The notes below the pieces were generated by a model, which had not been told where the DNA came from, made no database searches, and saw only the letters and a list, made by a program, of their open reading frames with translations. 29,670 nucleotides of DNA from the IMG/VR virus record IMGVR_UViG_3300036668_000331, positions 1-29,670 of that record; one strand, given 5' to 3'. Source of the stretch: a virus. How positions within the stretch are numbered: the first letter of the stretch is position 1; every line of letters begins with the position of its first letter. This document shows, one piece after another, positions 16,407 to 29,605 of this stretch. Made by a program: the position numbers and the translations under genes.

Positions 16407-16609
16407 AAGTCGACGTCCACAGACATGCTGACACCGTTGCCTCCGAAGAGCTTGACCAGCTCATCGCAGTAGGCGGCGGTCTCCTCAAGGGTCTCGTTGT
16501 CTTCCGCCAAAGAGGCAAGGTTCAAGGCGATCCCGATCAGCTCGGTCAACGCCTCAACCTGCATGGGGTGCATGTCTTTGAAACCCATCGATTTAAAACT
16601 ATTGATCAT
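16403..16609 (-). CDS. Small helical protein at the end of the replication operon
   Basis: The 68-residue protein reads MINSFKSMGFKDMHPMQVEALTELIGIALNLASLAEDNETLEETAAYCDELVKLFGG and is mostly amphipathic helix. The start at 16609 overlaps the polymerase stop (ATGA); the longer open frame would lie inside the polymerase. Its own TAG overlaps the convergent late-gene TAG through CTAG. As the last gene after the polymerase it may be a small replication accessory factor, but nothing in the sequence proves it. Confidence 0.65.
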   Translation of the reverse strand: MINSFKSMGFKDMHPMQVEALTELIGIALNLASLAEDNETLEETAAYCDELVKLFGGNGVSMSVDVDF

Positions 16610-19395
16610 CCGACTTCTCCCCAGTTGGCGCCCATCTCCGCGTCTACTTTTGACGGGACTTTCAACACGTCGGAAAGGCCTGTCTCCATAATCTCTTGAA
16701 TGCGGGCGGCCTGCTCCGAACTCTGTACCGAAAAGCATAGCTCATCGTGGACCGTGAGCATAGGCAGAAGGCCCTCTGCGTAACAATCCGCCATCGCTTT
16801 TTTGGTTTGGTCGGCCGCCGATCCTTGGATTAGTTTGTTTAAGGCCTTGTAAGTAAAGGCTCTTGTGAGTGGCTGACCATACTCCTGCATGGCCTCCTCA
16901 AAGGGGAGCGGCTGTTTGTAGCCGAAGGTCCGTGGCTCCCAGAGGTGGAAATTGCAGCGCCGGCCGAGCAGGGTACGGATAACCCCGTGCTTGGCTGCCT
17001 GCTGCATGGCGAGATCGGCCAGCCCTTTAACGAAGGGCACCTTCTCGTGGTGTGTGGACAGGAGTGCACCCGCATCTTCTTCGGCGATACCAAGCTGTCC
17101 GGCGAGCTTGGCCTTGCCCATGCCGTACATGATCCCGAGGTTGACGACCTTGGCTTCCTTCCGCGTGATGCCTGCGAAGTCGGCGACCATCTGGTGGAGG
17201 TCGACGTCTCCCTCGTTGTAGGCTTTGACGACGTCGTCGATCATGTCGTGGCGGTTCGGGCCTCTGATGCTGGCAGCGAAGTGCACCAGCAAACGCGGCT
17301 CCTGTGAGGAGTAGTCGAACGACCCCCATTGTGTCCCATCCTCGGGGATAAACAGGCCGCGGATGACCTTCTTGATCTCTGGGTCTCGTGCCGGAATCTG
17401 CTGCAGGTTTGGATTTGAAGAAGAGTTGTGGTGGATCAGTCCGTGGGCGACATAGCTGTGGTCGGCTTCGACCTCGATGTCCCAGACCTGTGCAACTCCC
17501 AAAGGCTCAATTTTCTCAACGGTGACCGAGCGTGCAGTGAGCGATGCCCCTCCGGTGTCACCAATGCGAGGTTGTGCGGCGAGTTGTCCTCTCGGTTCTC
17601 GTTGATGTGGTGAACATTCATACCCTCGGGCACCTCGGTCAAGCCAAGCATCTGAGCCATTACCACCTGATGCTCGTAGACGTGCTTCGACAAAGGTCTC
17701 CCCGTGTACCAACTCGGCTTGAGCACCAGAATGTAGCCGTACGGGTCGCAGAACAGCCGCCCTTTGTAGTTGGGGTGCAAGCCACCGGTTTTCCCCGACA
17801 TTCCGTTTCTTGCGCCAAGCTTGGACCGAGAGTACCGAAGGGCCTTCTCTTCCCTCATCTGCTCCTCTGTAAGAGCTGTGTTGACTATGGCTCGTGCGGA
17901 GTGAAATGTTATCCCATGCTTCGCACCCACCTCCTTGAGGCTCGGCTTGTCTTTGGAAAGGTACGACTCTACCACTGCTCGGCAAAGCTCCTCGTTCGCT
18001 AAGTCCCTCTTGGATATCGACACCACAAATCTCCTGTCCAATGACCAGGTCACCGACCTTCGTCCACCCCGAGGCTGTCATCACACGATGATTACGGGTA
18101 CATTTAACTACACTACCACAAGATGCCCGTAGCGCAACCATTTCTTCCTCGCCCTTATAAATCAAATGACGAATAGGCTGCAGCCTCCCTCGGTGCGTCA
18201 AGGCCATGTCTTGGCGAGGCTTGATGTCAATGATGGGGACGGGCCCACGCTGTGTTTCGATCAGGGTGTCTTCCGAAACACAGAATCGCCCTGTCACCGT
18301 GCCCCCATCATCGCTGCGGAGCTGGTGAAATTCTGTGTGGATACGACCCTTGTGCTCGTGGCGCAGGATCGAGTCAATGAACGTGCTGTCGGCCTTGTCC
18401 ACTTCCCGCAGGCTCACGATCATCTTGGCTACAGGGTGATCGTGAGCCGACAGCCACTGCTTTGTGAACGATGGCGCGCCGCCCTTGCGGAACATATCCG
18501 TCTGCTCGCTTTTGCTCGTTGGATAGCCCAGGCCCAGCGAGTCGAAGACTGAGGCCACGGAGGCCGCGGCCCACGGCTCCACCCGTATACCTGTCAGGCG
18601 GTGAATCTCGTCTTTGAGCTCAAGGCCTCTACGCTTGAACACGCGCTTTGCTTGCTCGGCTTTACTTACGTCAACCCGCACACCTGCCTGCCGCATGTCG
18701 CACATCATCGGGATCAGGCTGGTCTCGAGGTTCCAGATGTTCCAGAGGTCGTGCTCGTCGAGCTCCAGCTTCAGGCGCTCCCACAGGCGTAGGGTCATGC
18801 CGGCATCCTGCTCGGCGTAGCGGCCCACAAATACTGGCGGGAGCTTGTACATCTCAGCCTTGGGGTCCAAGCCCCACTCGGCCGCAGCCACCCGCAGGAG
18901 CTTCTCGTTCTTCCGCTCCGCCAGATAGTCCCGCCCGAGGTTATTTAGGCTGTACGAAAACCGGTTCTCGTTTACAATGGCGCCGGTGATCATCGTGTCA
19001 ATGATCCGGCCTTGAACGTTAACCCCTTCCGCGCGCAGCCAGCCCAAATCGTAGGTGGCGTTGTGCATGATCTTGTCGATGTGCGGTGTGGCCATCTGCG
19101 CCTTCAACCACTTCATCGTCATCTTTGGATCAAGGTTGTGGCCGTTTGCGTGACGGATCGGGAAGTACCCTTCCCAGTCGCCCGCGGCTACAGCAATGCC
19201 GACGATGAATCCATCGTTCCGCGCCCAGCCGGGCCCAAGCGTCGTCAGGTGCGGGTCGCAGGTCTCGAGGTCAACCGCAATCTGCTTGTACTGCCGAAGG
19301 TCTGGGTACTCGGTTGGGATGTTCCACGCCAGTTCAGGCGGCTCGTTCATCTGGGCCGCAATGACCTGATCCTTGTCTAGTGCATTACCCTGCAT
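16606..19395 (-). CDS. polA: Family A DNA polymerase interrupted by an intein
   Basis: The 929-residue precursor gives a 643-residue polymerase after removal of the intein (residues 372-657). The 3'-5' exonuclease motifs are present: AVDLETCDP (about 40-48), HNATYDLGWL (111-120) and YAEQDAGMTL (193-202). The polymerase motifs are TGRF|SSSNPNLQQIP at the intein junction, motif A FDYSSQEPRLLVHFA (693-707), O-helix RKEAKVVNLGIMYGMG (745-760) and motif C TVHDELCF (881-888). There is no 5'-3' nuclease domain, as usual for phage Pol A. The position equivalent to E. coli Phe762 is Leu (NLGIMYG). The start shares one base with the stop of the dNTP hydrolase gene upstream (TAATG). Confidence 0.93.
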   Translation of the reverse strand: MQGNALDKDQVIAAQMNEPPELAWNIPTEYPDLRQYKQIAVDLETCDPHLTTLGPGWARNDGFIVGIAVAAGDWEGYFPIRHANGHNLDPKMTMKWLKAQMATPHIDKIMHNATYDLGWLRAEGVNVQGRIIDTMITGAIVNENRFSYSLNNLGRDYLAERKNEKLLRVAAAEWGLDPKAEMYKLPPVFVGRYAEQDAGMTLRLWERLKLELDEHDLWNIWNLETSLIPMMCDMRQAGVRVDVSKAEQAKRVFKRRGLELKDEIHRLTGIRVEPWAAASVASVFDSLGLGYPTSKSEQTDMFRKGGAPSFTKQWLSAHDHPVAKMIVSLREVDKADSTFIDSILRHEHKGRIHTEFHQLRSDDGGTVTGRFCVSEDTLIETQRGPVPIIDIKPRQDMALTHRGRLQPIRHLIYKGEEEMVALRASCGSVVKCTRNHRVMTASGWTKVGDLVIGQEICGVDIQEGLSERGALPSSGRVVPFQRQAEPQGGGCEAWDNISLRTSHSQHSSYRGADEGREGPSVLSVQAWRKKRNVGENRWLAPQLQRAAVLRPVRLHSGAQAELVHGETFVEARLRASGGNGSDAWLDRGARGYECSPHQREPRGQLAAQPRIGDTGGASLTARSVTVEKIEPLGVAQVWDIEVEADHSYVAHGLIHHNSSSNPNLQQIPARDPEIKKVIRGLFIPEDGTQWGSFDYSSQEPRLLVHFAASIRGPNRHDMIDDVVKAYNEGDVDLHQMVADFAGITRKEAKVVNLGIMYGMGKAKLAGQLGIAEEDAGALLSTHHEKVPFVKGLADLAMQQAAKHGVIRTLLGRRCNFHLWEPRTFGYKQPLPFEEAMQEYGQPLTRAFTYKALNKLIQGSAADQTKKAMADCYAEGLLPMLTVHDELCFSVQSSEQAARIQEIMETGLSDVLKVPSKVDAEMGANWGEVG
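17436..18023 (-). CDS. HNH homing endonuclease nested out of frame in the intein
   Basis: The frame is shifted by +1 relative to the polymerase and lies wholly inside the intein DNA. From the GTG at 18023 it encodes 195 residues. An N-terminal HTH-like part (SISKRDLANEELCRAVVESYL...LKEVGAKHGITFHSARAIV) is followed by a linker (SKLGARNGMSGKTGGLHPNYKGRL). The HNH core then reads SKHVYEHQVVMAQMLGLTEVPEGMNVHHINENREDNSPHNLALVTPEGHRSLH, with the HH-x-N...DN-x-x-NL signature. The last 30 or so residues are the intein C-terminal coding region read in the other frame. An AGGAG lies 7 bases before this GTG; a GTG at 18053 is possible but has a weaker site. It is expected to cut intein-free polA alleles. 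Confidence 0.8.
   Translation of the reverse strand: MSISKRDLANEELCRAVVESYLSKDKPSLKEVGAKHGITFHSARAIVNTALTEEQMREEKALRYSRSKLGARNGMSGKTGGLHPNYKGRLFCDPYGYILVLKPSWYTGRPLSKHVYEHQVVMAQMLGLTEVPEGMNVHHINENREDNSPHNLALVTPEGHRSLHARSPLRKLSLWELHRSGTSRSKPTTAMSPTD
18031..18035 (-). promoter_or_regulatory. Shine-Dalgarno site for the nested HNH gene
   Basis: On the minus strand AGGAG is followed by 7 bases and then GTG at 18023. The site lies inside codons for intein residues GQEI, where a canonical site with ideal spacing is not required by the intein. It supports independent translation of the HNH protein. Confidence 0.6.
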
Positions 19396-19790: not shown

Positions 19791-21322
19791 AAGTAGTACC
19801 TGTATTTCTTGTCTGACTCGAGTAAGTATAGGTTGTCCTTGGTCCGAGTGACAGCGACATAAAGAGCGCGCCACTCGTCGTCGGGGTACTTGGTATTGAC
19901 GCAGGACCAAGTGGATCCAAGGTACACGATGCAGTTGCTGTCCTCCCCGCCCTTCATAGCGTGGAAAGTACTGACCTTGATCCTCGGCTCTTGGCTTAGA
20001 TCCTCGCCCCGAGAAACCAGCGCACGGATGTAGCGGGCCTCGTCGTTGCTGACGCGGAGCACGTCGTGGACATGCTTGTCCTGCGGGCCCAGCCAGCCGT
20101 AGTGCGCAACCAAGTCGTCGTACCCCAGCTCTGCCTCGGGGTCGGCCGCGTCCAGCAGCTTGGTGGCACCTCGGCGGACGAGCGCATCTTCTCCGGTCTT
20201 GGGCACTGACCCGTACAAATCCCGTACAAACCTTAGACCCACTGTACCGCCCGATGACAGGGTCTTCCACGTGCTCATGTTCTGGAGCATCTTGGGGCTG
20301 ACTGACGGCGATCCTTTCACGCTGTAGTAGTGCCCCATTTTCTCCAGCCTGTCGGCTATCTCGTAACAAAACGAGTTGACCCTTGCCATGATAGTCCATG
20401 ACCCTCGGTCCATGGACACATCGCCCAAGCGCATAAGGGTCTGGACCGAGCCCTCTTCGTCCCGAGGATGGAAGGCCTTTGGAATCCGGTTCTCGATCTT
20501 TGCCGTGATGCTCTGAGCAAGGCGCCACACTGCGCGAGGCAGGCGGTAGGATTGTGACAGCACCTCGATGTTCTCGGAGCATTTCAGGAACTGGCTCACC
20601 TCCACCCCAGCCCAGCGGTGCACGGCTTGGTCGTCGTCCCCCGCGATCACCACGGCTTTGGACGTCGCGGCCATGTGCCGGACCATGGTCCATTGCAGTG
20701 GGGTCAGATCCTGGGCCTCGTCAACAATAAGTAGGTCAAGGTAAACAGGGTCAGCCATAGCTGGGTAGAGCCCGATCATGTCGGCGAAGTCCTGCTTGCC
20801 CATCTTGGCCTTGTACTTTTCGTTCTGCTCGTGGACCTGTACCATCTTCGGGTAGCTGAGCGAGTAGTCTTCGATGTCGTTGTACTCCCGCTCGAGCGAG
20901 ACCTCACGGTAGCGGGCGCGCATCACGCTCTGCATGTACTTGGCCCCGCTGCCACCGATCGTGGGTAGCACAATGCCGTCATGCACAGAGGTGCGGTCCG
21001 CGCCGCGGAACTCAATCCCAAGCAGATCTCCCAGCGATTTGTAGTCATCCCGGGACATGACATCTGTCCGCTGCAGGCCCAGCGCGTGGTAGCCCGTGGC
21101 GTGCAGCGTACGGAAGTGGGGCAGCTGCTTAGGCTCGAGGTTGAACTCTGCACAGGCCCTGTCCAGAGCCTCCTTGATGGCCTTGGTGGTGAATGACACG
21201 AACCCTATGCGGGACGGATGCACACCACTTGCCAGAGCCTCCCTGACGGTCTCAATCAGCTTGTGTGTCTTGCCGCAGCCGGGCGGCCCAAGGATCAAGC
21301 GGCTATTCGGGATTGGGTGCAT
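19787..21322 (-). CDS. UvrD/Rep-like superfamily 1 DNA helicase
   Basis: The 511-residue protein has all the SF1 motifs: Walker A GPPGCGKT (residues 12-19), motif Ia FVSFTTKA, motif II DEAQD (201-205), motif III GDDDQAVHRWAG (228-239), motif IV QSYRLP (257-262), motif V VSTFHAMKGGE (about 450-460) and motif VI ALYVAVTRTKDNLYLL near the C-terminus. It is shorter than bacterial UvrD, as phage forms usually are. It is likely the replicative or recombination helicase of this phage, working with the primase upstream and polymerase downstream. Its start overlaps the HTH gene by 20 bases, and its stop overlaps the dNTP hydrolase start by ATGA. Confidence 0.9.
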   Translation of the reverse strand: MHPIPNSRLILGPPGCGKTHKLIETVREALASGVHPSRIGFVSFTTKAIKEALDRACAEFNLEPKQLPHFRTLHATGYHALGLQRTDVMSRDDYKSLGDLLGIEFRGADRTSVHDGIVLPTIGGSGAKYMQSVMRARYREVSLEREYNDIEDYSLSYPKMVQVHEQNEKYKAKMGKQDFADMIGLYPAMADPVYLDLLIVDEAQDLTPLQWTMVRHMAATSKAVVIAGDDDQAVHRWAGVEVSQFLKCSENIEVLSQSYRLPRAVWRLAQSITAKIENRIPKAFHPRDEEGSVQTLMRLGDVSMDRGSWTIMARVNSFCYEIADRLEKMGHYYSVKGSPSVSPKMLQNMSTWKTLSSGGTVGLRFVRDLYGSVPKTGEDALVRRGATKLLDAADPEAELGYDDLVAHYGWLGPQDKHVHDVLRVSNDEARYIRALVSRGEDLSQEPRIKVSTFHAMKGGEDSNCIVYLGSTWSCVNTKYPDDEWRALYVAVTRTKDNLYLLESDKKYRYYL

Positions 21323-21515
21323 TTCTCTTCTCCTCTATCCATTTTTGAATGTCTTCTTCCATCCATCTTGCGGCCACACGCTTTCGATCCTCGCCCCCGA
21401 GCTTGATCGGGGCAGGGAACCGGCCTTCGGCCGACCACTTGTAGATCGCGGACTGAGAGACGCCGAGCCATTGCGCCACCTCTTTGATCCGCAGAAGCTT
21501 AGAATGGGACGTCAT
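21303..21515 (-). CDS. AlpA/excisionase-like HTH protein
   Basis: The 70-residue protein has a winged-helix HTH of the AlpA/MerR-excisionase type: LLRIKEVAQWLGVSQSAIYKWSAEGRFPAPIKLGGEDRKRVAARWMEEDIQKWIEEKR. These proteins act as transcription regulators or excisionases. I chose ATG 21515 (AAGGA 8 bases upstream) rather than the TTG at 21521. It lies between primase and helicase, overlapping both genes. This is an unusual place for a regulator and suggests autogenous control of the replication operon or a directionality factor without a visible integrase. Confidence 0.8.
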   Translation of the reverse strand: MTSHSKLLRIKEVAQWLGVSQSAIYKWSAEGRFPAPIKLGGEDRKRVAARWMEEDIQKWIEEKRNAPNPE

Positions 21516-23031
21516 TTTCAATATCCTTCACATCGAGGTCTAGGTCTTCGTCTTCAAATTCTGGAACCCACCACACGCGCATGTTGGTCCGCTTGTCACC
21601 TTCTCTGTAGTAATTCTTGATGGTGGTGCAGCTGTCTGTCCCGTTGATCGCTTTCAGGTGCTCTTGGATCTCGCCCCTGCTGCGGTAGTTGAAATGCCGC
21701 TGCCGCAGGAACTCCTCAAGCCCTGCCATCGTGAACATCGTGCGTCCGTTCTCGGTCCACGGCTTGCCCATCTTGAGCTCGGCAGGCTCCATGGCCCTGA
21801 TCCGGCTGGTGCAGAACTGGCGCAGCACCTCCTTGAACTGGCCGCGCACGGTCAGCTCTTCGGGGGCCTCGAGCCGCGTCGCATCCCGCAGCATCTGCGC
21901 GATCTTGCCTTGGTAGTCCTGCTCCTTGATCTTGGGCGGCATGACCGTGGACTGCTCCATCACGACACGCTGCCAAAGGTGCTGGCTCTGGAGCTCCTCG
22001 GTGCTCAGCTGGATGCGGTGGCCGTCGACATCCATGAAATAGAGACGCGGCTCCGACATCAGGATGGTTAGGCCACCCAAGTTGGGCATGTTGGGCACGC
22101 TGCTGCCGATCCCATGCGGCCGGGTTCGGCAGAGCTGCACATCGCAGTGGCTCCGGAACGGCTCGTCCTTGCAGGTGTAGCTGTATTCCTTCCTGTTCAA
22201 TGACTTCTGGACGCCGTTGACCTCACTCGCCTGCAGCGGATCCGTGAACAGGCGGCGGTTCATGTCCTCCATCTCCTTGACCCAGTCGTCAGGAGTCTTC
22301 ATCCGGCAGTAGACCCCGCAGAAAAACAAGGTTTTGTTGCGGTCGCTCGAGACTGGGCCGTCGGCAAACAGGTGCTCCAGGCAGGGTGGCCCGTCGGTAA
22401 AGTACTTGCGCTTGCCGGAGAGCTGCAGGCTCTCGAGCTGCGCCAAGGTCGCTCGCTTGGCCTCGACGGCGTCCAAGAACTCGGCCAGCTCCATCGCTTC
22501 GCCCTTCTCGTTGAAGGCGTAGCGCATAGTCATTTCGGCGTTCTGGTAGGGCATGTTAATAAAGTTGCCCACATCCCCTCGGTCAGACAAGATTGTGTCT
22601 TGCTTGGGGAACACCTCGCACCCACTATGGCCCAGCGCAATCGAGAACTCTGTCAGAAACTCGCGCACATCCTTGGCGTCGTAGAACTGATCAAGGAACA
22701 GGTAGAGATGTGCGCCGCCAGACTTGGTCCGGCAATGCACGAAGGGAAGCTTGAGCTTCTGGATCTTATCTTGCAGGGCCTTGTGGTCGAGGTCGTAGAC
22801 ATCGATGTCCAGCGCGCCCCACTTGCACTGGTTTTCGGCGTTGATAGGGATGGCGCCTACGCCGAGGCCGCCGCTTAGGTGAGCCTCGATTTTAGCTAAA
22901 TTCAGCGGCTCCCGTACAATACGGCTGTCCGCTTCTGCCTTCCCTGTGCGCCCGGTTCTTCCGACTTTCGTCGTGCCGTGGGCAACCTTCGAACCCTCGA
23001 AGGCAGCCAGCATTCTTGCTGCGTCTGACAT
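21499..23031 (-). CDS. AEP-superfamily DNA primase (PrimPol-like)
   Basis: The 510-residue protein has the archaeo-eukaryotic primase catalytic core. KWGALDIDVYD carries D75 and D77, VHCRTKSGGAHLYLFL carries the S-x-H type histidine H108, and GCEVFPKQ follows. A PriCT-like region (PPCLEHLFADGPVSSDRNKTLFFCGVYCR) and a Cys cluster (C287, C296, C301 in YTCKDEPFRSHCDVQLCRTRPHGIG) are likely zinc-binding elements. It ends in an acidic tail, DEDLDLDVKDIENDVPF, resembling SSB tips. A GGAG site 7 bases before the ATG supports the start. It should make primers for the Pol A encoded downstream. A terminator lies just upstream. Confidence 0.82.
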   Translation of the reverse strand: MSDAARMLAAFEGSKVAHGTTKVGRTGRTGKAEADSRIVREPLNLAKIEAHLSGGLGVGAIPINAENQCKWGALDIDVYDLDHKALQDKIQKLKLPFVHCRTKSGGAHLYLFLDQFYDAKDVREFLTEFSIALGHSGCEVFPKQDTILSDRGDVGNFINMPYQNAEMTMRYAFNEKGEAMELAEFLDAVEAKRATLAQLESLQLSGKRKYFTDGPPCLEHLFADGPVSSDRNKTLFFCGVYCRMKTPDDWVKEMEDMNRRLFTDPLQASEVNGVQKSLNRKEYSYTCKDEPFRSHCDVQLCRTRPHGIGSSVPNMPNLGGLTILMSEPRLYFMDVDGHRIQLSTEELQSQHLWQRVVMEQSTVMPPKIKEQDYQGKIAQMLRDATRLEAPEELTVRGQFKEVLRQFCTSRIRAMEPAELKMGKPWTENGRTMFTMAGLEEFLRQRHFNYRSRGEIQEHLKAINGTDSCTTIKNYYREGDKRTNMRVWWVPEFEDEDLDLDVKDIENDVPF

Positions 23032-23046
23032 TGTTTACTCCAAGTG

Positions 23047-23085
23047 AAAAAGGGGCGCCCTGATTGGGAGGAGGAAGGGCGCCCC
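23047..23085 (-). terminator. Intrinsic terminator after the SSB-like gene
   Basis: On the minus strand a perfect 10-bp stem, GGGGCGCCCT/AGGGCGCCCC, with a 14-base loop is followed by TTTTT. It lies between the SSB-like gene stop (23107) and the primase start (23031). It would cut most transcripts after SSB, leaving a fraction to reach the primase. Confidence 0.85.
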
Positions 23086-23106
23086 GAGGCTACTCAAAAC
23101 TACGAC

Positions 23107-23904
23107 TTAGAACGGGATGTCCGAGTCGTAGTTCTTGGATGCGCCGCCTGTATCAGACTGGGCTTCCGGAGCAGCTTTCACTTCGCCAGCCATGACAGAG
23201 TCACGGAAGGCTTTGCCTTCGAGGAGCAGGTCACGGCTTGTTACCAAACCGACCTTCTCCACTTGGTAGTTGTTCCACGAACCTTGGTCATTGGACTCCT
23301 CAGTCGTGGACAGCTTCCACTGGGTTGCGAACACAGCAGGGGTGATCGACGTCCCAGACGCGGGGTGCCGCACCTTCTGCATCGCGATCTGCGTCTTCCA
23401 GCGCCGGCTCACCTTGAGCTGCGTGGACTTCATGTCGATCACTGCAGGCTGGTACGAACCGTCATCGCCCAAGACCAAGCAGAAGTGCTGGTCAGACTTC
23501 ACCAGCTCGTTGCCGCTTGGCAGCATCTCCTTGGATCCGTTGCGCGTGGTCTGCTGCAAGACCGAGCTGTTGGCAGGGATTTCGCCCTTGAACCCGCCGC
23601 CCATGTCCCGAGGCACGAACTCCAAGTACTTGGTGGTCTGGAAGCAGGGGATCACAGTGACACCCTCCTCGCCGGACCAGTGCTCGCCTGTCACGGTGTT
23701 GAACAGGTCGCCCTGTGCCGCACCCTCGATGTACTCCGGCTTCTTCTTGTTGAGCTGGGGAGACAGAGCCTGTAGCACACGGATGAACGGGATCTGCATC
23801 TCCGAGCTGTCGAAGGCAGCGCCCTCTCCAGCCATGTCAAAGATGTCGTCCAATACGTCCGCCGATACTGCGGTCTCTTTTGCGGTTGTGACTGCGGTGC
23901 TCAT
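23107..23904 (-). CDS. Putative single-stranded DNA-binding protein
   Basis: The 265-residue protein has a central beta-rich region (VTVIPCFQTTKYLEFVPRDMGGG, HFCLVLGDDGSYQPAVIDMKSTQLKVSRRWKTQIAM, QGSWNNYQVEKVGLVTSRDLL) and an N-terminal acidic helix. It ends in ASKNYDSDIPF, the acidic-plus-IPF tip that SSB proteins use to recruit partners. Proteins of this kind in marine podoviruses are often labelled ssDNA-binding. It sits at the head of the replication operon, and a strong terminator directly after it fits a need for high amounts. The OB fold is not proven from sequence alone. Confidence 0.65.
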   Translation of the reverse strand: MSTAVTTAKETAVSADVLDDIFDMAGEGAAFDSSEMQIPFIRVLQALSPQLNKKKPEYIEGAAQGDLFNTVTGEHWSGEEGVTVIPCFQTTKYLEFVPRDMGGGFKGEIPANSSVLQQTTRNGSKEMLPSGNELVKSDQHFCLVLGDDGSYQPAVIDMKSTQLKVSRRWKTQIAMQKVRHPASGTSITPAVFATQWKLSTTEESNDQGSWNNYQVEKVGLVTSRDLLLEGKAFRDSVMAGEVKAAPEAQSDTGGASKNYDSDIPF

Positions 23905-24089
23905 TTTGCTTTCCTTTTAATCTCGTCATCCTGACGCTTCATGTCTCGTTCGATCCATTCGTCCTCGATCTGCTGATCAATCCAGCGATCTTCGCACTCT
24001 TGCTCAAACTTATCGGGGTCCTCACGAGCGTCAGACTCTCCCTGCTCCATCTCTTCCTGCCCCATCTGCCATCTCTTAACGGCGCCCAT
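23901..24089 (-). CDS. Small highly charged protein
   Basis: The 62-residue protein (MGAVKRWQMGQEEMEQGESDAREDPDKFEQECEDRWIDQQIEDEWIERDMKRQDDEIKRKAK) is almost entirely charged, with Glu/Asp blocks and Trp at intervals. It is probably one long helix. It overlaps the SSB-like start by ATGA and its own start overlaps the preceding small gene. A DNA-mimic-like acidic protein or SSB partner could be imagined, but no family is recognised. Confidence 0.6.
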   Translation of the reverse strand: MGAVKRWQMGQEEMEQGESDAREDPDKFEQECEDRWIDQQIEDEWIERDMKRQDDEIKRKAK

Positions 24090-24240: not shown

Positions 24241-24797
24241 GACTTCCTCTTGATTTCTGCTGCGTTTGCAACGAATGCCCCGAACATGTCGAGGTCGATT
24301 GGCTTACCGTTTTCGATACGCTCTTTGACGAAGGCCTTGAGCGTAGCAGGGTGAATGTGGGTCTTGGTCTCAGGGTCGAAGCCTTGGTCTTTCAACAGGC
24401 CGACAGCGTGGCCAGCACGATTGTCTTCACCTTTTCCAAAGCTTACCACCACGTCGTTCTTGATGATGTCATCAAGGTTGTTGGCACGCAGCCAAGCATA
24501 GACATCCTCACGACGGTCGACAGGGATCGACGCGTGGATCATCATCTTTCTGGAAACGGTAACGCCGTCGACATCCAAACGCTCGACACCCATCTCGTCC
24601 ATGAGACCGGGGATGAGTTCGACAGAAAGCTTCTGCTTCTCTGCCTTCAGGCTTTTGACGTGGAGCTCTGCGTCCTGGATCTGCTGCTCGACGCGCTTCA
24701 ATGCTCGTACAAGATCGCTGAGGTTTTTGCCGGTCGCTGTGTCGACGCTGTTCAACGCACCGGCGGTGTCGAACATGTCCTCGAATATGTCGTCCAT
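24237..24797 (-). CDS. Conserved phage protein with coiled coil, first gene of replication operon
   Basis: From ATG 24797 the protein has 186 residues. A short acidic start (MDDIFEDMFDTAGAL) leads into a coiled coil (LSDLVRALKRVEQQIQDAELHVKSLKAEKQKLSVELIPGLMDEMGVERLDVDG). A compact domain follows, including VYAWLRANNLDDIIKNDVVVSFGKGED and THIHPATLKAFVKERIENG. Similar proteins often sit before SSB-like genes in phages; function unknown to me. The open frame extends to 24833, but that would run over the operator-like palindrome, and GAGG before 24797 supports the later start. It is the first gene leftward from the divergent promoter. Confidence 0.7.
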   Translation of the reverse strand: MDDIFEDMFDTAGALNSVDTATGKNLSDLVRALKRVEQQIQDAELHVKSLKAEKQKLSVELIPGLMDEMGVERLDVDGVTVSRKMMIHASIPVDRREDVYAWLRANNLDDIIKNDVVVSFGKGEDNRAGHAVGLLKDQGFDPETKTHIHPATLKAFVKERIENGKPIDLDMFGAFVANAAEIKRKS

Positions 24798-24873
24798 AAG
24801 TTTGTCCTCTTCAGGGGTTGATCGGTGACACACGATGTGTCATCCATACGGTGGACTGTATTGGAGGTATGTA
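24798..24873. promoter_or_regulatory. Divergent promoter region
   Basis: About 76 bases separate the leftward replication operon from the rightward SNF2-like operon; both directions must start here or nearby. A palindrome lies in the middle and a GGAGG site before 24874. I see no unambiguous sigma70 -35/-10 pair in either direction. Confidence 0.6.
24826..24842. promoter_or_regulatory. Candidate operator palindrome
   Basis: TGACACA-CGA-TGTGTCA is a perfect 7-bp inverted repeat with a 3-base spacer, centred in the divergent intergenic region. This is the form of a binding site for a dimeric HTH repressor or activator that could control both operons together. Confidence 0.6.
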
Positions 24874-26343
24874 ATGACTGTCAACTACAATTTTAAGCTC
24901 GAACCATTTGAGCATCAGAAACAAGCACTCACTGCCGCGGGTAGTCGGCCGGAGTTTGGGTTCTTCATGGAGATGGGTACAGGCAAATCAAAAGTACTAT
25001 TAGATAATATCGGGCAGCTGTACCTAGAGGGGCTGGTGAACTTCGCCCTGATCATTGCACCCAAAGGCGTGTACCGCAACTGGGTCACAAAGGAAATCCC
25101 CGAGCACATGTCCGACGATGTACCCCATCGGGTTATACGCTGGGTGGCAAATGCCAATAAGGCGCAGACAAAAGAGCTCAAGTCAGTGGCCGACCAGTTC
25201 GACGGCCTGACCATCTTTGTCATGAACGTCGAAGCTTTCTCCTCGCTCAAGGGCCAGCAGGCAGGCAAATGGCTTGCAACTAAATTCGGTGCGCACGGCC
25301 TGATCGGCATCGACGAATCGACCACGATCAAGAACCACAAAGCCAAGCGCACAAAGGCGCTGATGAAGATAGCCGCAGGCTTCGCCTTCCGGCGCCTGCT
25401 GACAGGGTCGCCCGTGACCAAATCACCGCTGGATCTGTACGGTCAGACCGAGTTCCTCCGCCCTGGGCTCTTGGGTTTCGACAGCTTCTACGCCTTCCAA
25501 GGGCGCTACGCTGTGTTGAACAACCGCAAGATGGGTGCCAAGACCTTCCAACAGATCGTGGGCTACCGCAACCTCGAGGAGTTGACTTGGCGCGTGGATC
25601 AGTTCTCCTTCCGCGTGTTAAAGAAGGACTGCCTTGACCTGCCCGAGAGGACCTACACGGCGCGCTACGTCACGCTGACGCCCGAGCAGGCGAAGATGTA
25701 CGAGTCGATCCAGAACCAAGCCCTGCACATGTTTGAGGACGGCCAGATGGTCACCGCACCGGCTGTGATCACGCAGCTCCTCCGGCTGCAGCAGGTGATG
25801 TCAGGGCATCTGAAGACAGACGACGGGGACATCAAGACCTTTCCTTCCACGCGAATGGATGCGCTTGCAGACATCTTAGACGAGCATGACGGGAAATCGA
25901 TAATCTGGTCACGCTTTCGATACGACATCGTCAATATCGTAGAGATGCTGAACAAAAGATACGGCGAAGGCAGCGCTGCTGCGTACTACGGCGACACGTC
26001 AGACGACCAGCGCAACTGGATCGTCGGAGAGTTTCAGAAGCCGGGATCACGATTGCGTTACTTCGTCGGCAATCCGGCGACCGCAGGGTACGGCTTGACG
26101 CTGACCGAGGCCGACCTTGTGGTGTACTACAGTAACTCGTTTGACCTAGAGCATAGACTTCAGTCACAGGATCGTGTACACAGGATTGGGCAACGTAACC
26201 CTGTGACGTATATCGACCTGATCACTGAGAACTCTATCGATGAAAGAATCGTGGAGGCACTTCGCAATAAGATCGACATCGGAGCACAGGTCCTTGGAGA
26301 AAAGGCGCAGGAATGGCTGAAACTAAAACCGTCCAAAGGGTGA
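24874..26343 (+). CDS. SNF2-like superfamily 2 helicase
   Basis: The 489-residue protein from ATG 24874 (GGAGG just upstream) has Q-type motif PFEHQ (11-15), Walker A EMGTGKS (33-39), APKGVYRNW (Ia), motif II DEST (147-150, in place of DEAH), motif III LTGSP (176-180) and the C-terminal helicase half. That half includes SIIWSRFRYDIVNI, NPATAGYGLTLTEADLVVYYS and motif VI DRVHRIGQ (433-440). This is the SNF2 family as found in many phages, where it acts as a DNA translocase in replication or recombination. The C-terminus EWLKLKPSKG overlaps the AP2-HNH gene by 31 bases, and a near copy of this end appears after that gene. Confidence 0.9.
   Translation: MTVNYNFKLEPFEHQKQALTAAGSRPEFGFFMEMGTGKSKVLLDNIGQLYLEGLVNFALIIAPKGVYRNWVTKEIPEHMSDDVPHRVIRWVANANKAQTKELKSVADQFDGLTIFVMNVEAFSSLKGQQAGKWLATKFGAHGLIGIDESTTIKNHKAKRTKALMKIAAGFAFRRLLTGSPVTKSPLDLYGQTEFLRPGLLGFDSFYAFQGRYAVLNNRKMGAKTFQQIVGYRNLEELTWRVDQFSFRVLKKDCLDLPERTYTARYVTLTPEQAKMYESIQNQALHMFEDGQMVTAPAVITQLLRLQQVMSGHLKTDDGDIKTFPSTRMDALADILDEHDGKSIIWSRFRYDIVNIVEMLNKRYGEGSAAAYYGDTSDDQRNWIVGEFQKPGSRLRYFVGNPATAGYGLTLTEADLVVYYSNSFDLEHRLQSQDRVHRIGQRNPVTYIDLITENSIDERIVEALRNKIDIGAQVLGEKAQEWLKLKPSKG
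26307..26331 (+). repeat. Junction repeat, left copy (SNF2 end / HNH start)
   Basis: The left copy of an imperfect direct repeat flanking the AP2-HNH gene contains GCAGGA followed by an ATGGCT...CTAAA...CCG block. In the SNF2 frame it encodes AQEWLKLKP; in the other frame it starts the HNH protein. Confidence 0.65.
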
Positions 26344-26927
26344 CCGCGGAGGAGTTGAGAGAGCTCCTCGAGTACGACCCTTTAACAGGGCAGCTGTGGT
26401 GGAAACCGCGGCCCCTAAAATACTTTGAAGACCGCGGCGGCAGGTACACAGCCCGACGCAGCAAACGAATTTTTGACACGACCTACGCCGGTACTTTGGC
26501 TCTGAACTGCCTTAACCAATCGGGTTACCTGAGGGGGAATCTTTTTGGTCGTTTGATGCTGGCACACAGAGCTGCGTACATAATTACGACAGGGCATCCG
26601 CTTGTCACGTCGCAGCAGATCGATCACGTAAATGGCGTTCGGTCTGACAATAGGTGGGCTAACTTACGCTTGGCCACCAATACCCAAAACCAACACAACA
26701 GTAAGTCAGCTAAAGGGTCGTCGTCAGAGTTTGTTGGGGTAGCTTGGGACCGATTTGCGAATAAATGGTGCGCTTACATTAGTCCTGAGAACAGGAAGGT
26801 GCACTTAGGGTACTTCGAGACAGAGATTGACGCGGCCATTAGCCGAGATAAGGCCGCAATAGAAATGTTCGGAGAGTACGCAAGGTTGAACGTTTTGACT
26901 GCGGAGAGGAAGCAGGAGAATGGCTAA
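26313..26927 (+). CDS. AP2-domain HNH endonuclease (homing type)
   Basis: The 204-residue protein has an HNH_3 core (LMLAHRAAYIITTGHPLVTSQQIDHVNGVRSDNRWANLRLATNTQNQHN) and a C-terminal AP2 DNA-binding domain (SSSEFVGVAWDRFANKWCAYISPENRKVHLGYFETEIDAAISRDKAAIEMFGEYARLN). The N-terminus, ELRELLEYDPLTGQLWWKPR, is also typical of phage AP2-HNH homing endonucleases. It is inserted between the SNF2 gene and a small gene, overlapping both. The flanking duplicated junction indicates insertion without loss of either neighbour. Confidence 0.9.
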   Translation: MAETKTVQRVTAEELRELLEYDPLTGQLWWKPRPLKYFEDRGGRYTARRSKRIFDTTYAGTLALNCLNQSGYLRGNLFGRLMLAHRAAYIITTGHPLVTSQQIDHVNGVRSDNRWANLRLATNTQNQHNSKSAKGSSSEFVGVAWDRFANKWCAYISPENRKVHLGYFETEIDAAISRDKAAIEMFGEYARLNVLTAERKQENG

Positions 26928-26938
26928 ACCTAAAGCCG
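26912..26938 (+). repeat. Junction repeat, right copy (HNH end / next gene start)
   Basis: The right copy matches the left in GCAGGA and 16 of 19 bases from ATGGCT to CCG, with two extra bases before the ATG. Read in the former SNF2 frame from 26912 it gives AGEWLNLKPSRQ and then a stop at 26950, a remnant SNF2 C-terminus. Confidence 0.65.
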
Positions 26939-27186
26939 AGCCGCCAGTAGATCCATACAGCCCAGAGGTGATCGAGCTGATGATCGAGGTCAGGACAGGC
27001 TGGCGCAATATGACCAACGGCATCCGAGACCTGCAGCAGTTGACTGGGCTCGAGCCCGACATCTGCAGGGTGCTGTTCGAAATGAACAAGAGCCTGACCG
27101 TCCCCCAGATCCGAGGCTACTCGAAGATGCCCGCGCAACTGGTTGAAGGAAAAAGAAAAAAGGCGACCCGAAGGTCGCCCAGTTAG
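26920..27186 (+). CDS. Small hypothetical protein after SNF2/HNH
   Basis: The 88-residue protein MAKPKAEPPVDPYSPEVIELMIEVRTGWRN... has a helical middle (IRDLQQLTGLEPDICRVLFEMNKSLTVPQIRGYSKMPAQLVEG) and a basic tail (KRKKATRRSPS). It may be a DNA-binding accessory protein, since its basic C-terminus follows a small HTH-like fold, but no family is recognised. Its start overlaps the HNH stop. The minus-strand terminator lies within its last codons. Confidence 0.6.
   Translation: MAKPKAEPPVDPYSPEVIELMIEVRTGWRNMTNGIRDLQQLTGLEPDICRVLFEMNKSLTVPQIRGYSKMPAQLVEGKRKKATRRSPS
27151..27179 (-). terminator. Terminator of the right-hand leftward operon
   Basis: On the minus strand GGCGACC-TTCG-GGTCGCC is followed by TTTTTTCTTTT. 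It is a 7-bp GC-rich stem closed by a C(UUCG)G tetraloop, an unusually stable form, with a good U-tract. It would stop leftward transcription from 27.3-29.7 kb before it runs antisense into the SNF2 operon. Confidence 0.85.
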
Positions 27187-27206
27187 GGAGGTAGGCAAAC
27201 AAAGCA

Positions 27207-27228
27207 GGCGGTGCTTTGTAGCACCGCC
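27207..27228. terminator. Second hairpin in the convergent gap
   Basis: GGCGGTGC and GCACCGCC form a perfect 8-bp stem with loop TTTGTA, followed on the + strand by CCTTGTAT, a poor T-tract. It probably helps end rightward transcripts of the SNF2 operon, which lack another terminator. Direction uncertain. Confidence 0.5.
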
Positions 27229-27271
27229 CTTGTATCACGGAACGATACGCATGGGAACACTTATGATAGTG

Positions 27272-27484
27272 CTAGTGCGTGGTCGTCACCTGTTTTCTTT
27301 TCTCCATCAGACTGCGCTGAACGCTACCGGCCTTGTTGGACAGGTGCTCGAGATAGCCCTCCACATTCTCCAATCCGACGTAAGTCCCGATCAGGAAAAA
27401 GATCACGGCCTCGAACTCTTCCTCCTCCATCTGCTTCGGCAGGTTGTTCAGCGCCTCTAAGATTCTCATCTGCTCCTCGGTCAT
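27272..27484 (-). CDS. Small helical acidic protein
   Basis: The 70-residue protein MTEEQMRILEALNNLPKQMEEEEFEAVIFFLIGTYVGLENVEGYLEHLSNKAGSVQRSLMEKRKQVTTTH has an acidic N-terminus, a hydrophobic middle (EAVIFFLIGTYVGL) that is too short and interrupted to be a sure membrane span, and a basic tail. Its start overlaps the preceding stop by ATGA. It is the last gene before the right-hand terminator. Function unknown. Confidence 0.6.
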   Translation of the reverse strand: MTEEQMRILEALNNLPKQMEEEEFEAVIFFLIGTYVGLENVEGYLEHLSNKAGSVQRSLMEKRKQVTTTH

Positions 27485-27963
27485 GATTCCACCTCGACAA
27501 AGCGGCTGATGTCTTTTGCCCAGAGGCAGAAGGATGGACGCTGCTGGTCCGCCCGAGCGTAGACATCGGCCCGCGCAACTCGCTCCTGCTTGAGCAGGCG
27601 GTTCAGCGCGTTGCCTGCCGTCGTGCTGTCCACGGATACCATGTCAGCGATCTCAGAGGTGGTGTGGTATGCACCTGCGTCCTTGCCTATGGCAGCAGCG
27701 ATGCGATCGTCGATCGACGCCGGCACTGGCTCTTCTTCCGGCTCGCCCACGGGAGCAATGTGGATCGCGAACCACGGTGTCCTGTCGCCGTGCTGGTGGT
27801 TGGGGATGAGGGTGGCGATGGAGCTGTCACCAATGCTCATGTTCGCGCGCTTGGTTACGGTCGCAGGGATAAACACCTGCTCCCCGTTATCGCTGCGCAG
27901 CCCAAAGGCAGTGCCGGTGTCCAGCATGTTGGTACAGAAGATGGATACGTTTTCAGATTGCAT
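27481..27963 (-). CDS. Protein with cold-shock-like and winged-helix parts
   Basis: From ATG 27963 (AGGAA 7 bases upstream) the protein has 160 residues. The N-terminal half (LDTGTAFGLRSDNGEQVFIPATVTKRANMSIGDSSIATLIPN) resembles a cold-shock or OB-type strand pattern with FG-x-x...VFIP. The C-terminal half (IDDRIAAAIGKDAGAYHTTSEIADMVSVDSTTAGNALNRLLKQERVARADVY) is a winged helix. A nucleic-acid-binding regulator is likely. The longer open frame would overlap the upstream coiled-coil gene. Family assignment is tentative. Confidence 0.65.
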   Translation of the reverse strand: MQSENVSIFCTNMLDTGTAFGLRSDNGEQVFIPATVTKRANMSIGDSSIATLIPNHQHGDRTPWFAIHIAPVGEPEEEPVPASIDDRIAAAIGKDAGAYHTTSEIADMVSVDSTTAGNALNRLLKQERVARADVYARADQQRPSFCLWAKDISRFVEVES

Positions 27964-27973
27964 GTTGCAGTTC

Positions 27974-28231
27974 CTATTGTTGAGGTTGGATAATATCGAG
28001 AAGTGCGAGGCACTCCTGTAGGTCATGGTATAGTTGGCCACGGTTCTTGGCTGCGTCAAGCTTGAGGATCTCCAGCTTGCGGCGCAGGCGGTGGATTACT
28101 GGTGCTTGGGCCTCGGCCCTCGCTTCTAGGTCCTCGGCGTAGGCCTCCGCCTCCTTGGCGTCCCGCACAGCGGCTTCGTAGCGCTCTTTGTAGTCGATGG
28201 GCGTGCCCTCAGGCAGTTTCCACTTGGTCAT
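27974..28231 (-). CDS. Coiled-coil protein with MTKWKLPEG start
   Basis: The 85-residue protein starts MTKWKLPEGTPIDYKERYEAA and continues as a coiled coil rich in Glu, Ala, Arg and Lys (VRDAKEAEAYAEDLEARAEAQAPVIHRLRRKLEIL). The first nine residues are identical to those of the gene at 29315-29605. It is ATGA-coupled to the small gene upstream. Function unknown; the helix resembles small scaffolding or accessory proteins. Confidence 0.6.
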   Translation of the reverse strand: MTKWKLPEGTPIDYKERYEAAVRDAKEAEAYAEDLEARAEAQAPVIHRLRRKLEILKLDAAKNRGQLYHDLQECLALLDIIQPQQ

Positions 28232-28353
28232 TGGTTTGTGCTTTCTGCGTGCGCGTCGCGCATTATTTCGGTGATGTATTCGGCCACGGATTCGCAGCCC
28301 ATTTTGTCTGTTTCCCTAGCTTGTTCACGGTTCTTGTTCCTTTCTGTTGTCAT
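28228..28353 (-). CDS. Small hypothetical protein, 41 residues
   Basis: A short frame from ATG 28353 to TGA 28228 reads MTTERNKNREQARETDKMGCESVAEYITEIMRDAHAESTNQ. Its stop overlaps the next ATG (ATGA) and its start overlaps the upstream gene by 29 bases, the arrangement seen throughout this operon. An internal ATG at 28302 could be the true start. It fills what would otherwise be a gap. Function unknown. Confidence 0.5.
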   Translation of the reverse strand: MTTERNKNREQARETDKMGCESVAEYITEIMRDAHAESTNQ

Positions 28354-28780: not shown

Positions 28781-29130
28781 AGCTCGTTCTCCTTATCATA
28801 CTTTGCCCGCACCACGTCCGTCAGCCACTCTGCGAGGGTCTCGTACCCCTCGCGCTGGGCGTCGCCGATCAGCCATACCTTCTCTTCCTTTGACAGCGCC
28901 ATCATCATGTCGCTGATGCGCCCCTGACGCATTCCGTTCCCTTTGACGAGATCAAGCACTGCTTGACGTGGGTTTGTCTTGGGCTTGGGTGGCAGCCAGT
29001 TGCGCTGCCGTGCTCGGGACACGCACCTCACGACCTGATCGTACGTCATGTTCAGCATCTGCGCGATCTCGACGTTGCGGTTGCCTGCGCGGCGCAGGAC
29101 GGCGACTTGATTGATTTGTTCGTCTGTCAT
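28777..29130 (-). CDS. HTH protein
   Basis: From ATG 29130 the protein has 117 residues. MTDEQINQVAVLRRAGNRNVEIAQMLNMTYDQVVRCVSRARQRNWLPP is an HTH of the sigma-region-4 or GcrA-like type. The rest (LVKGNGMRQGRISDMMMALSKEEKVWLIGDAQREGYETLAEWLTDVVRAKYDKENEL) is helical. The longer frame upstream would overlap the neighbouring gene. It is likely a transcription regulator for early genes. Confidence 0.7.
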   Translation of the reverse strand: MTDEQINQVAVLRRAGNRNVEIAQMLNMTYDQVVRCVSRARQRNWLPPKPKTNPRQAVLDLVKGNGMRQGRISDMMMALSKEEKVWLIGDAQREGYETLAEWLTDVVRAKYDKENEL

Positions 29131-29318
29131 GGCCGTGCCACCGGGCGCAGGAACGGGATGCCTGTATCGCGGCAGTATGCGTCCACTTGCTGGCCCCACA
29201 GTTCTTCCAACGCCTCGACCATCGCAGGCATCTGATCGCAGACTGCGTGGGTCTTGCCCGTGATGTGACCGACTTCCATGCTGCCGATCGCGAAGATGAT
29301 TATGTATAGTGAGGTCAT
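29127..29318 (-). CDS. Small protein with hydrophobic N-terminus
   Basis: From ATG 29318 (GAAAGGAAAG upstream) the protein has 63 residues: MTSLYIIIFAIGSMEVGHITGKTHAVCDQMPAMVEALEELWGQQVDAYCRDTGIPFLRPVARP. Residues 3-12 are strongly hydrophobic and could be a short anchor or part of a fold. The tail includes two Cys residues and GIPFLRP. It is ATGA-coupled to the HTH gene. Function unknown. Confidence 0.6.
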   Translation of the reverse strand: MTSLYIIIFAIGSMEVGHITGKTHAVCDQMPAMVEALEELWGQQVDAYCRDTGIPFLRPVARP

Positions 29319-29605
29319 GTTGTCTTTCCTTTCATAGCGTCCGCCAGTATCGCGGCGCGGGTTTCGGGGGTGTTCAGGGCGCGGCGCAATACATTGATAT
29401 AATCTGCCGTGTGCGTTTCGTCTTTCCAATCTGGGCTGTCCCATCTGTCAATGACGGCCTGCGCCGCAAAAATGATGGCGTCAACAAAATCGGCGCGAAT
29501 GTATTCAACGCCGCCATCGTAGTCGTCAAGCGTTTCCCAAGCTTGTATCCGTTCCGGTGCGTCAGTCATGGGCGCTCGGCCCTCGGGTAGTTTCCATTTG
29601 GTCAT
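29315..29605 (-). CDS. Hypothetical protein with MTKWKLPEG start
   Basis: From ATG 29605, which overlaps the upstream stop by ATGA, the protein has 96 residues: MTKWKLPEGRAPMTDAPERIQAWETLDDYDGGVEYIRADFVDAIIFAAQAVIDRWDSPDWKDETHTADYINVLRRALNTPETRAAILADAMKGKTT. The first nine residues match those of the gene at 27974-28231. MTDAPERIxAW...YIRAD is a common start of small phage proteins, so 29569 is an alternative start. No function is known. Confidence 0.6.
   Translation of the reverse strand: MTKWKLPEGRAPMTDAPERIQAWETLDDYDGGVEYIRADFVDAIIFAAQAVIDRWDSPDWKDETHTADYINVLRRALNTPETRAAILADAMKGKTT

Follow-up and report, generated by a model that had tools for sequence, protein, structure and literature searches.

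Phage genomes contain little non-coding space. In fungal mitochondria, the mobile endonuclease ORFs (mORFs) of Allomyces and Glomus, described at atp6, atp9, cox2 and nad3, bring replacement C-termini to these genes and leave the native end downstream, and the native 3' end left behind resembles the end found in uninvaded relatives more than the replacement does (PMC3630166). T4-like phages carry free-standing endonucleases (mob, seg) between genes, and in T4 five endonuclease ORFs overlap the ORF upstream of them (PMC2988022). AP2-HNH homing genes of phages include IPA-HNH (PMC10448857) and the HNN-AP2 genes of Xanthomonas phages (PMC2248197), and the ShiLan domain is an HNH encoded within a phage methylase gene in a different reading frame (PMC11855218).

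Here, we describe an AP2-HNH gene that resides at the junction of two phage genes in a contig of 29,670 bases, a virus record referred to below as the window. The gene order is SNF2 helicase, AP2-HNH and a gene of 88 residues, with overlaps of 31 bp and then 8 bp (Table 1). The HNH element supplies the last ~10 codons of the window SNF2 gene, and the displaced native SNF2 end is reused as the 3' end of the HNH gene and the start region of the neighbour, whose protein has no match in Pfam or PHROG. From the comparison of sequences, this is very probably a free-standing AP2-HNH homing endonuclease gene that has repeatedly invaded the overlap between an SNF2 gene and a small gene.

Table 1. Features of the window and the lineages that carry an AP2-HNH gene at the SNF2 junction
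Feature	Position	Strand	Evidence or remark
SNF2-family helicase gene, 489 aa	24874..26343	+	Pfam SNF2-rel_dom 2.2e-17, Helicase_C 7.7e-12
Probable foreign-donor co-conversion tract at the SNF2 3' end	26083..26312 (approximate, inferred limits)	+	divergence from L004
Dual-coded segment: HNH codons 1-10 / last SNF2 codons WLKLKPSKG-stop in the other frame	26313..26343	+	sequence; mimicry score
AP2-HNH endonuclease gene, 204 aa	26313..26927	+	HNH_3, weak AP2, family profile, model
7-bp direct repeat AATGGCT, left copy; bounds the 607-bp net insert	26312..26318	+	comparison with L001-L003
7-bp direct repeat AATGGCT, right copy	26919..26925	+	comparison with L001-L003
Displaced native SNF2 3' end, GEEAGEWLNLKPSRQ-stop	26903..26950	+	17/18 bases = relatives' SNF2 codons; tail = L004
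Downstream neighbour gene, 88 aa	26920..27186	+	100% identical in L001-L003
Lineage A			the window
Lineage B			L086/L206-L211
Lineage C			L129/L214-L216
Lineage D			L019/L217
Lineage E			L218-L223

A sequence-only reading had proposed that the HNH gene is flanked by a duplicated gene junction, and this is borne out: ATGGCTGAAACTAAAACCG (26313-26331) and ATGGCTAAACCTAAAGCCG (26920-26938) agree at 16 of 19 bases, a match reached, anywhere in the region, by one of 200 first-order shuffles of the surrounding 751 bp. A repeat search of the window at default seed did not return the junction duplication. As that reading had noted, the right copy read in the SNF2 frame encodes AGEWLNLKPSRQ-stop and the actual SNF2 end is AQEWLKLKPSKG-stop. 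The hexamer GCAGGA, which had been counted as part of the repeat, is present at both copies but in a different codon register (left GCG CAG GAA TGG, right GCA GGA GAA TGG). The true duplication reaches further left, where GGAGAGGAAGCAGGAGAA (26903-26920) agrees at 17 of 18 bases with the SNF2 codons for GEEAxE in relatives; outside the two copies the window maximum on both strands is 16 of 18. The right copy is therefore the displaced SNF2 3' end, and its tail, WLNLKPSRQ, is identical to the SNF2 tail of the HNH-free relative L004.

The SNF2 gene had been predicted to overlap the small gene directly in relatives lacking the HNH gene, and HNH-free relatives indeed carry the two genes adjacent and overlapping, with SNF2 ending in WLxLxPx and running into the next gene by 24-33 bp in nearly all. 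A survey of SNF2 relatives, with up to 80 loci taken per scan, gave about 130 distinct junctions among the matches listed, with frequencies that are rough; at nearly all of them the next gene opens with ATGGC or a close variant, 24-33 bp ahead of the SNF2 stop. In L124, L140 and L174 the overlapping neighbour is absent and WLELxPR is kept, indicating that the tail owes its conservation to the helicase itself; a different small gene lies a short way downstream in its place. No HNH gene is annotated after the helicase in the isolate or complete phages that encode it (DSL-LC04, 023Pt_psg01 and HTVC027P). Close genomes with and without the HNH gene at one site are represented twice, by the window and L001-L006 and by L217 and L024/L025. 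The nearest relatives, L001-L003, lack the HNH gene, encode an SNF2 protein 99% identical and an 88-residue protein 100% identical to those of the window, and have a junction equal to that of the window minus the 607 bp between the two AATGGCT copies. The window is also mosaic with respect to L001/L002, with 99.4-99.6% identity in a block of ~4 kb (24244-28315) and 92.7-93% and 84% in its flanks (20803-23905 and 29073-29331).

AP2-HNH genes occupy the same junction point in five phage lineages, A to E. Lineages other than that of the window were recovered with a degenerate pattern of the junction and with an alignment of four HNH sequences, single HNH queries having given few relatives, and a scan of bacterial and archaeal genomes returned one distant relative only. 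Every resident HNH gene starts with ATGGC at the WL codons of the helicase, and in the helicase frame the first HNH codons of the five lineages read WLKLKPSKG, WLRIQPK(R/K)P, WLELSPKKSK, WLQLKPSKK and WLNVKPSK. Scored for helicase-tail mimicry against a profile built from 56 empty-junction helicase tails, the 5' ends of resident HNH genes reach 9.7-23.2 (window 23.2), and those of 62 non-resident HNH genes at most 8.1. If random codons follow ATGGCT, such a score is reached with a probability of 3.5e-5 in the case of the window and 0.02-0.04 in that of lineage B (L206/L207), where the dual-coded tail beats chance only modestly. The window HNH gene shares its first 19 bases, without a mismatch, with the start of the neighbour in L056, which suggests descent of this prefix from such a junction. 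Read in this way, the element carries a replacement helicase 3' end with it, and the neighbour is restarted behind the element.

The window HNH protein possesses an HNH_3 nuclease domain that passes the Pfam cut-off (PF13392, 1.4e-10), and AP2 is matched weakly, below the cut-off, by the protein alone (0.0038). A profile of the HNH family matches AP2/ERF structures (6.6e-14) and I-HmuI (3.6e-7), and Foldseek returns AP2 domains with probability 1.00 and E about 1e-3; the protein is thus predicted to carry the C-terminal AP2 DNA-binding domain of AP2-HNH endonucleases. Its AlphaFold model is confident (pLDDT 88.6) apart from residues 1-5 and 199-204, which fall where the DNA is common to the neighbouring genes. 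In the helicase model, a predicted helix (455-482) stops at WL and the replaced tail beyond it, where pLDDT is low, is predicted to lack structure, which may explain why this tail can be exchanged.

The helicase tree forces five changes between the empty and occupied states. In the HNH tree, lineages A-D form one clade (support 98/76) and E stands apart; monophyly of all five resident HNHs was neither demonstrated nor rejected (p 0.49). The relationships of HNH and helicase disagree, the window helicase being closer to L019 of lineage D (72.6%) than to L086 of lineage B (68.7%), and the window HNH closer to L086 (60%) than to L019 (35%). Helicase sequences next to the insert are divergent as well. 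L217 of lineage D differs from the empty L025 by 20.8% over the last 77 helicase codons and by 1.0% at codons 172-300 (Fisher 8e-18), and downstream of the insert by 11 mismatches in 700 bases, that is, with no rise; among empty pairs, no comparable upstream rise was seen. Divergence between the window and L004 is 40, 32 and 28% in the last 10, 10-30 and 30-77 codons and 10-12% further up (Fisher 4e-8), a rise read from a single outgroup pair and its control, L004 against L005, which has no gradient (Fisher 0.66). In profile rows L006 and L011 an indel breaks the codon register, and the values affected were ignored. The gradients and the near relatives together uphold the earlier suggestion that the SNF2 3' end was replaced, and they show foreign helicase DNA left of the insert in two lineages, as would be expected from break repair near the junction. 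A donor of these tracts was not found among the loci sampled.

Between 24916 and 26318, L001-L003 do not differ from the window, foreign tract included, and they carry the motif AQEW; AQEW, AQKW or AMKW occurs at 7 of 7 occupied versus 2 of 123 empty junctions. On the basis of the divergence profiles and these motifs, we dropped L001-L003 as representatives of the ancestral empty state, which L004-L006 (82-90% identical) show. Because they share the foreign helicase tail with the window, L001-L003 are probably secondary losses, in which the HNH gene was once present and was removed by recombination between the 7-bp AATGGCT repeats; an alternative is partial conversion without the gene.

Such a loss would also be accommodated by vertical inheritance, in which a common ancestor already had the HNH gene at the junction and many later losses left the junctions clean. 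The AATGGCT repeat offers a precise route of loss, which L001-L003 resemble, four of the lineages have resident HNHs that group in a single clade, and an old presence followed by losses could account for some of the pattern, gains and losses not being fully separable. We nevertheless consider vertical inheritance unlikely as the overall explanation, since it conflicts with the discordant helicase and HNH relationships, with the one-sided foreign tract of L217, a sign of recent import when compared with the closely related but empty L024/L025, and with the emptiness of nearly all junctions sampled.

The borders of the insert bear on a second alternative. In lineage A, the displaced native SNF2 end forms the HNH 3' end and the neighbour retains ATGGCT, the HNH stop overlapping the start of the 88-residue gene in ATGGCTAA, at which the neighbour of lineage B also starts. 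The neighbour starts with GTGACT in D; it has lost its ATG in C, so that translation has to begin at an upstream start. In E, the return to native sequence falls inside the neighbour (AAAGGATCTGATATGAC versus AAAGGATTTGATATGAC in L115), and the neighbour thus restarts at an internal ATG. The claim that neither neighbour was broken consequently holds for the window but, given C and E, is no general rule. A transposase-like or recombinase-like insertion, with AATGGCT as a 7-bp target duplication and the HNH as a passenger or non-homing nuclease, would account for the exact direct repeats that flank the 607-bp net insert. It is highly improbable, however, because the insert lacks a recombinase, carries a host-gene tail and adjoins a foreign tract, and because right borders that vary by lineage, with E resuming inside the neighbour, are unlike a fixed target duplication. 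That the HNH is instead a domesticated nuclease kept for phage benefit, for example to exclude rival phages at co-infection, is very doubtful, for although its reading frame is intact, its fold confident and marker exclusion tied to homing nucleases on record for T-even phages (PMC2988022), its presence is patchy and near-identical relatives are HNH-free.

The comparison establishes where the gene sits, its dual coding, the existence of empty sites, gains or losses that occurred separately in five lineages of the helicase, and the left-side foreign helicase tract. Three features of homing endonuclease genes are found together here: presence and absence at one site, mismatch between gene and host phylogenies, and flanking co-conversion. 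Three signs point to homing, namely the state changes with four of five HNHs in one clade, the disagreement of the trees, and the foreign upstream tracts. In the proposed homing mechanism, the target would be the start of the small downstream gene inside the last ~10 codons of the phage SNF2 gene. By beginning where the ATG of the displaced gene stood, the element would take over the ribosome-binding region of that gene. The first ~10 codons of the element double, in another frame, as the replacement helicase C-terminus; past its 3' end, the displaced native sequence supplies the new start of the neighbour. The enzyme would cut at or near the junction, double-strand-break repair would copy the cassette together with co-converted sequence on one side, and recombination through the AATGGCT repeats might sometimes remove it again, as in L001-L003.

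A second out-of-frame HNH is present in the window. The DNA polymerase ORF (16606-19395, minus strand) carries an intein within which a complete HNH ORF of 205 codons (17436-18053, minus) is read in a different frame of that strand. In L290-L294 (69-100% identity) the intein frame is free of stops across the HNH ORF, so that both frames stay open; early stops lie near the 5' end of the HNH frame at L292:3022 and L293:3010, where this frame either starts later or is decaying. This HNH resembles that of ShiLan but is surrounded by an intein splicing domain. L292 and L221 lie on the same contig, IMGVR_UViG_3300022859_000008, a phage genome that combines a lineage-E HNH at the junction after SNF2 with the polymerase intein and its out-of-frame HNH. 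IMGVR_UViG_3300023235_000323 (L001, presumed formerly occupied) and IMGVR_UViG_3300023235_001474 (L218, lineage E) share a metagenome number, so that donor and recipient phages may be present together.

The junction has received five natural insertions, two with close empty relatives, and shows a probable loss scar; it is thus a replicated case that opens recognition, upstream repair, downstream restart and loss to direct testing. It also carries a warning for annotation, as what looks like a host gene's own end may be coding sequence that belongs to a resident element. The evidence leaves us evenly divided on whether these genes constitute a class of homing element for overlapping genes, one that would carry the recipient's gene end in a second frame at its 5' end, recycle the displaced native end as its 3' codons, enter arrangements that have no space between genes, spread among distant phages and sometimes leave a foreign-tail scar when lost. 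Among open-licence papers on HNH or homing genes in overlapping genes, the arrangement of the window was not found described. The T4-like endonucleases likewise include free-standing HNH genes between conserved genes that are inherited with co-conversion, but the portion of PMC2988022 drawn on here does not describe an upstream coding end replaced by the endonuclease's own codons, as in the window. IPA-HNH and HNN-AP2 share with the window the HNH plus AP2 architecture and a patchy presence; no conserved sequence was identified in the flanks of the Xanthomonas HNN-AP2 genes (PMC2248197), whereas the insertion site of the window type is fixed. In ShiLan, as here, HNH and host coding occupy different frames of one DNA, but the entire HNH lies within one host gene, whereas the window HNH has only its two ends in common with its neighbours. 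The replacement tail of fungal mORFs continues the reading frame of the host gene, and the ORF is of the LAGLIDADG or GIY-YIG type (PMC3630166); the window tail, in contrast, is shared with endonuclease codons, its ~10 codons being a second-frame reading of the 5' end of the AP2-HNH gene, at a site where two genes overlap. In both, an endonuclease ORF lies near the 3' end of a host gene and a foreign C-terminus replaces the native one, and the window has the same succession of a foreign left tail, WLKLKPSKG, and a native end downstream, where the right copy equals the L004 tail. The mobile endonuclease ORFs of fungal mitochondria are the closest precedent for this locus.
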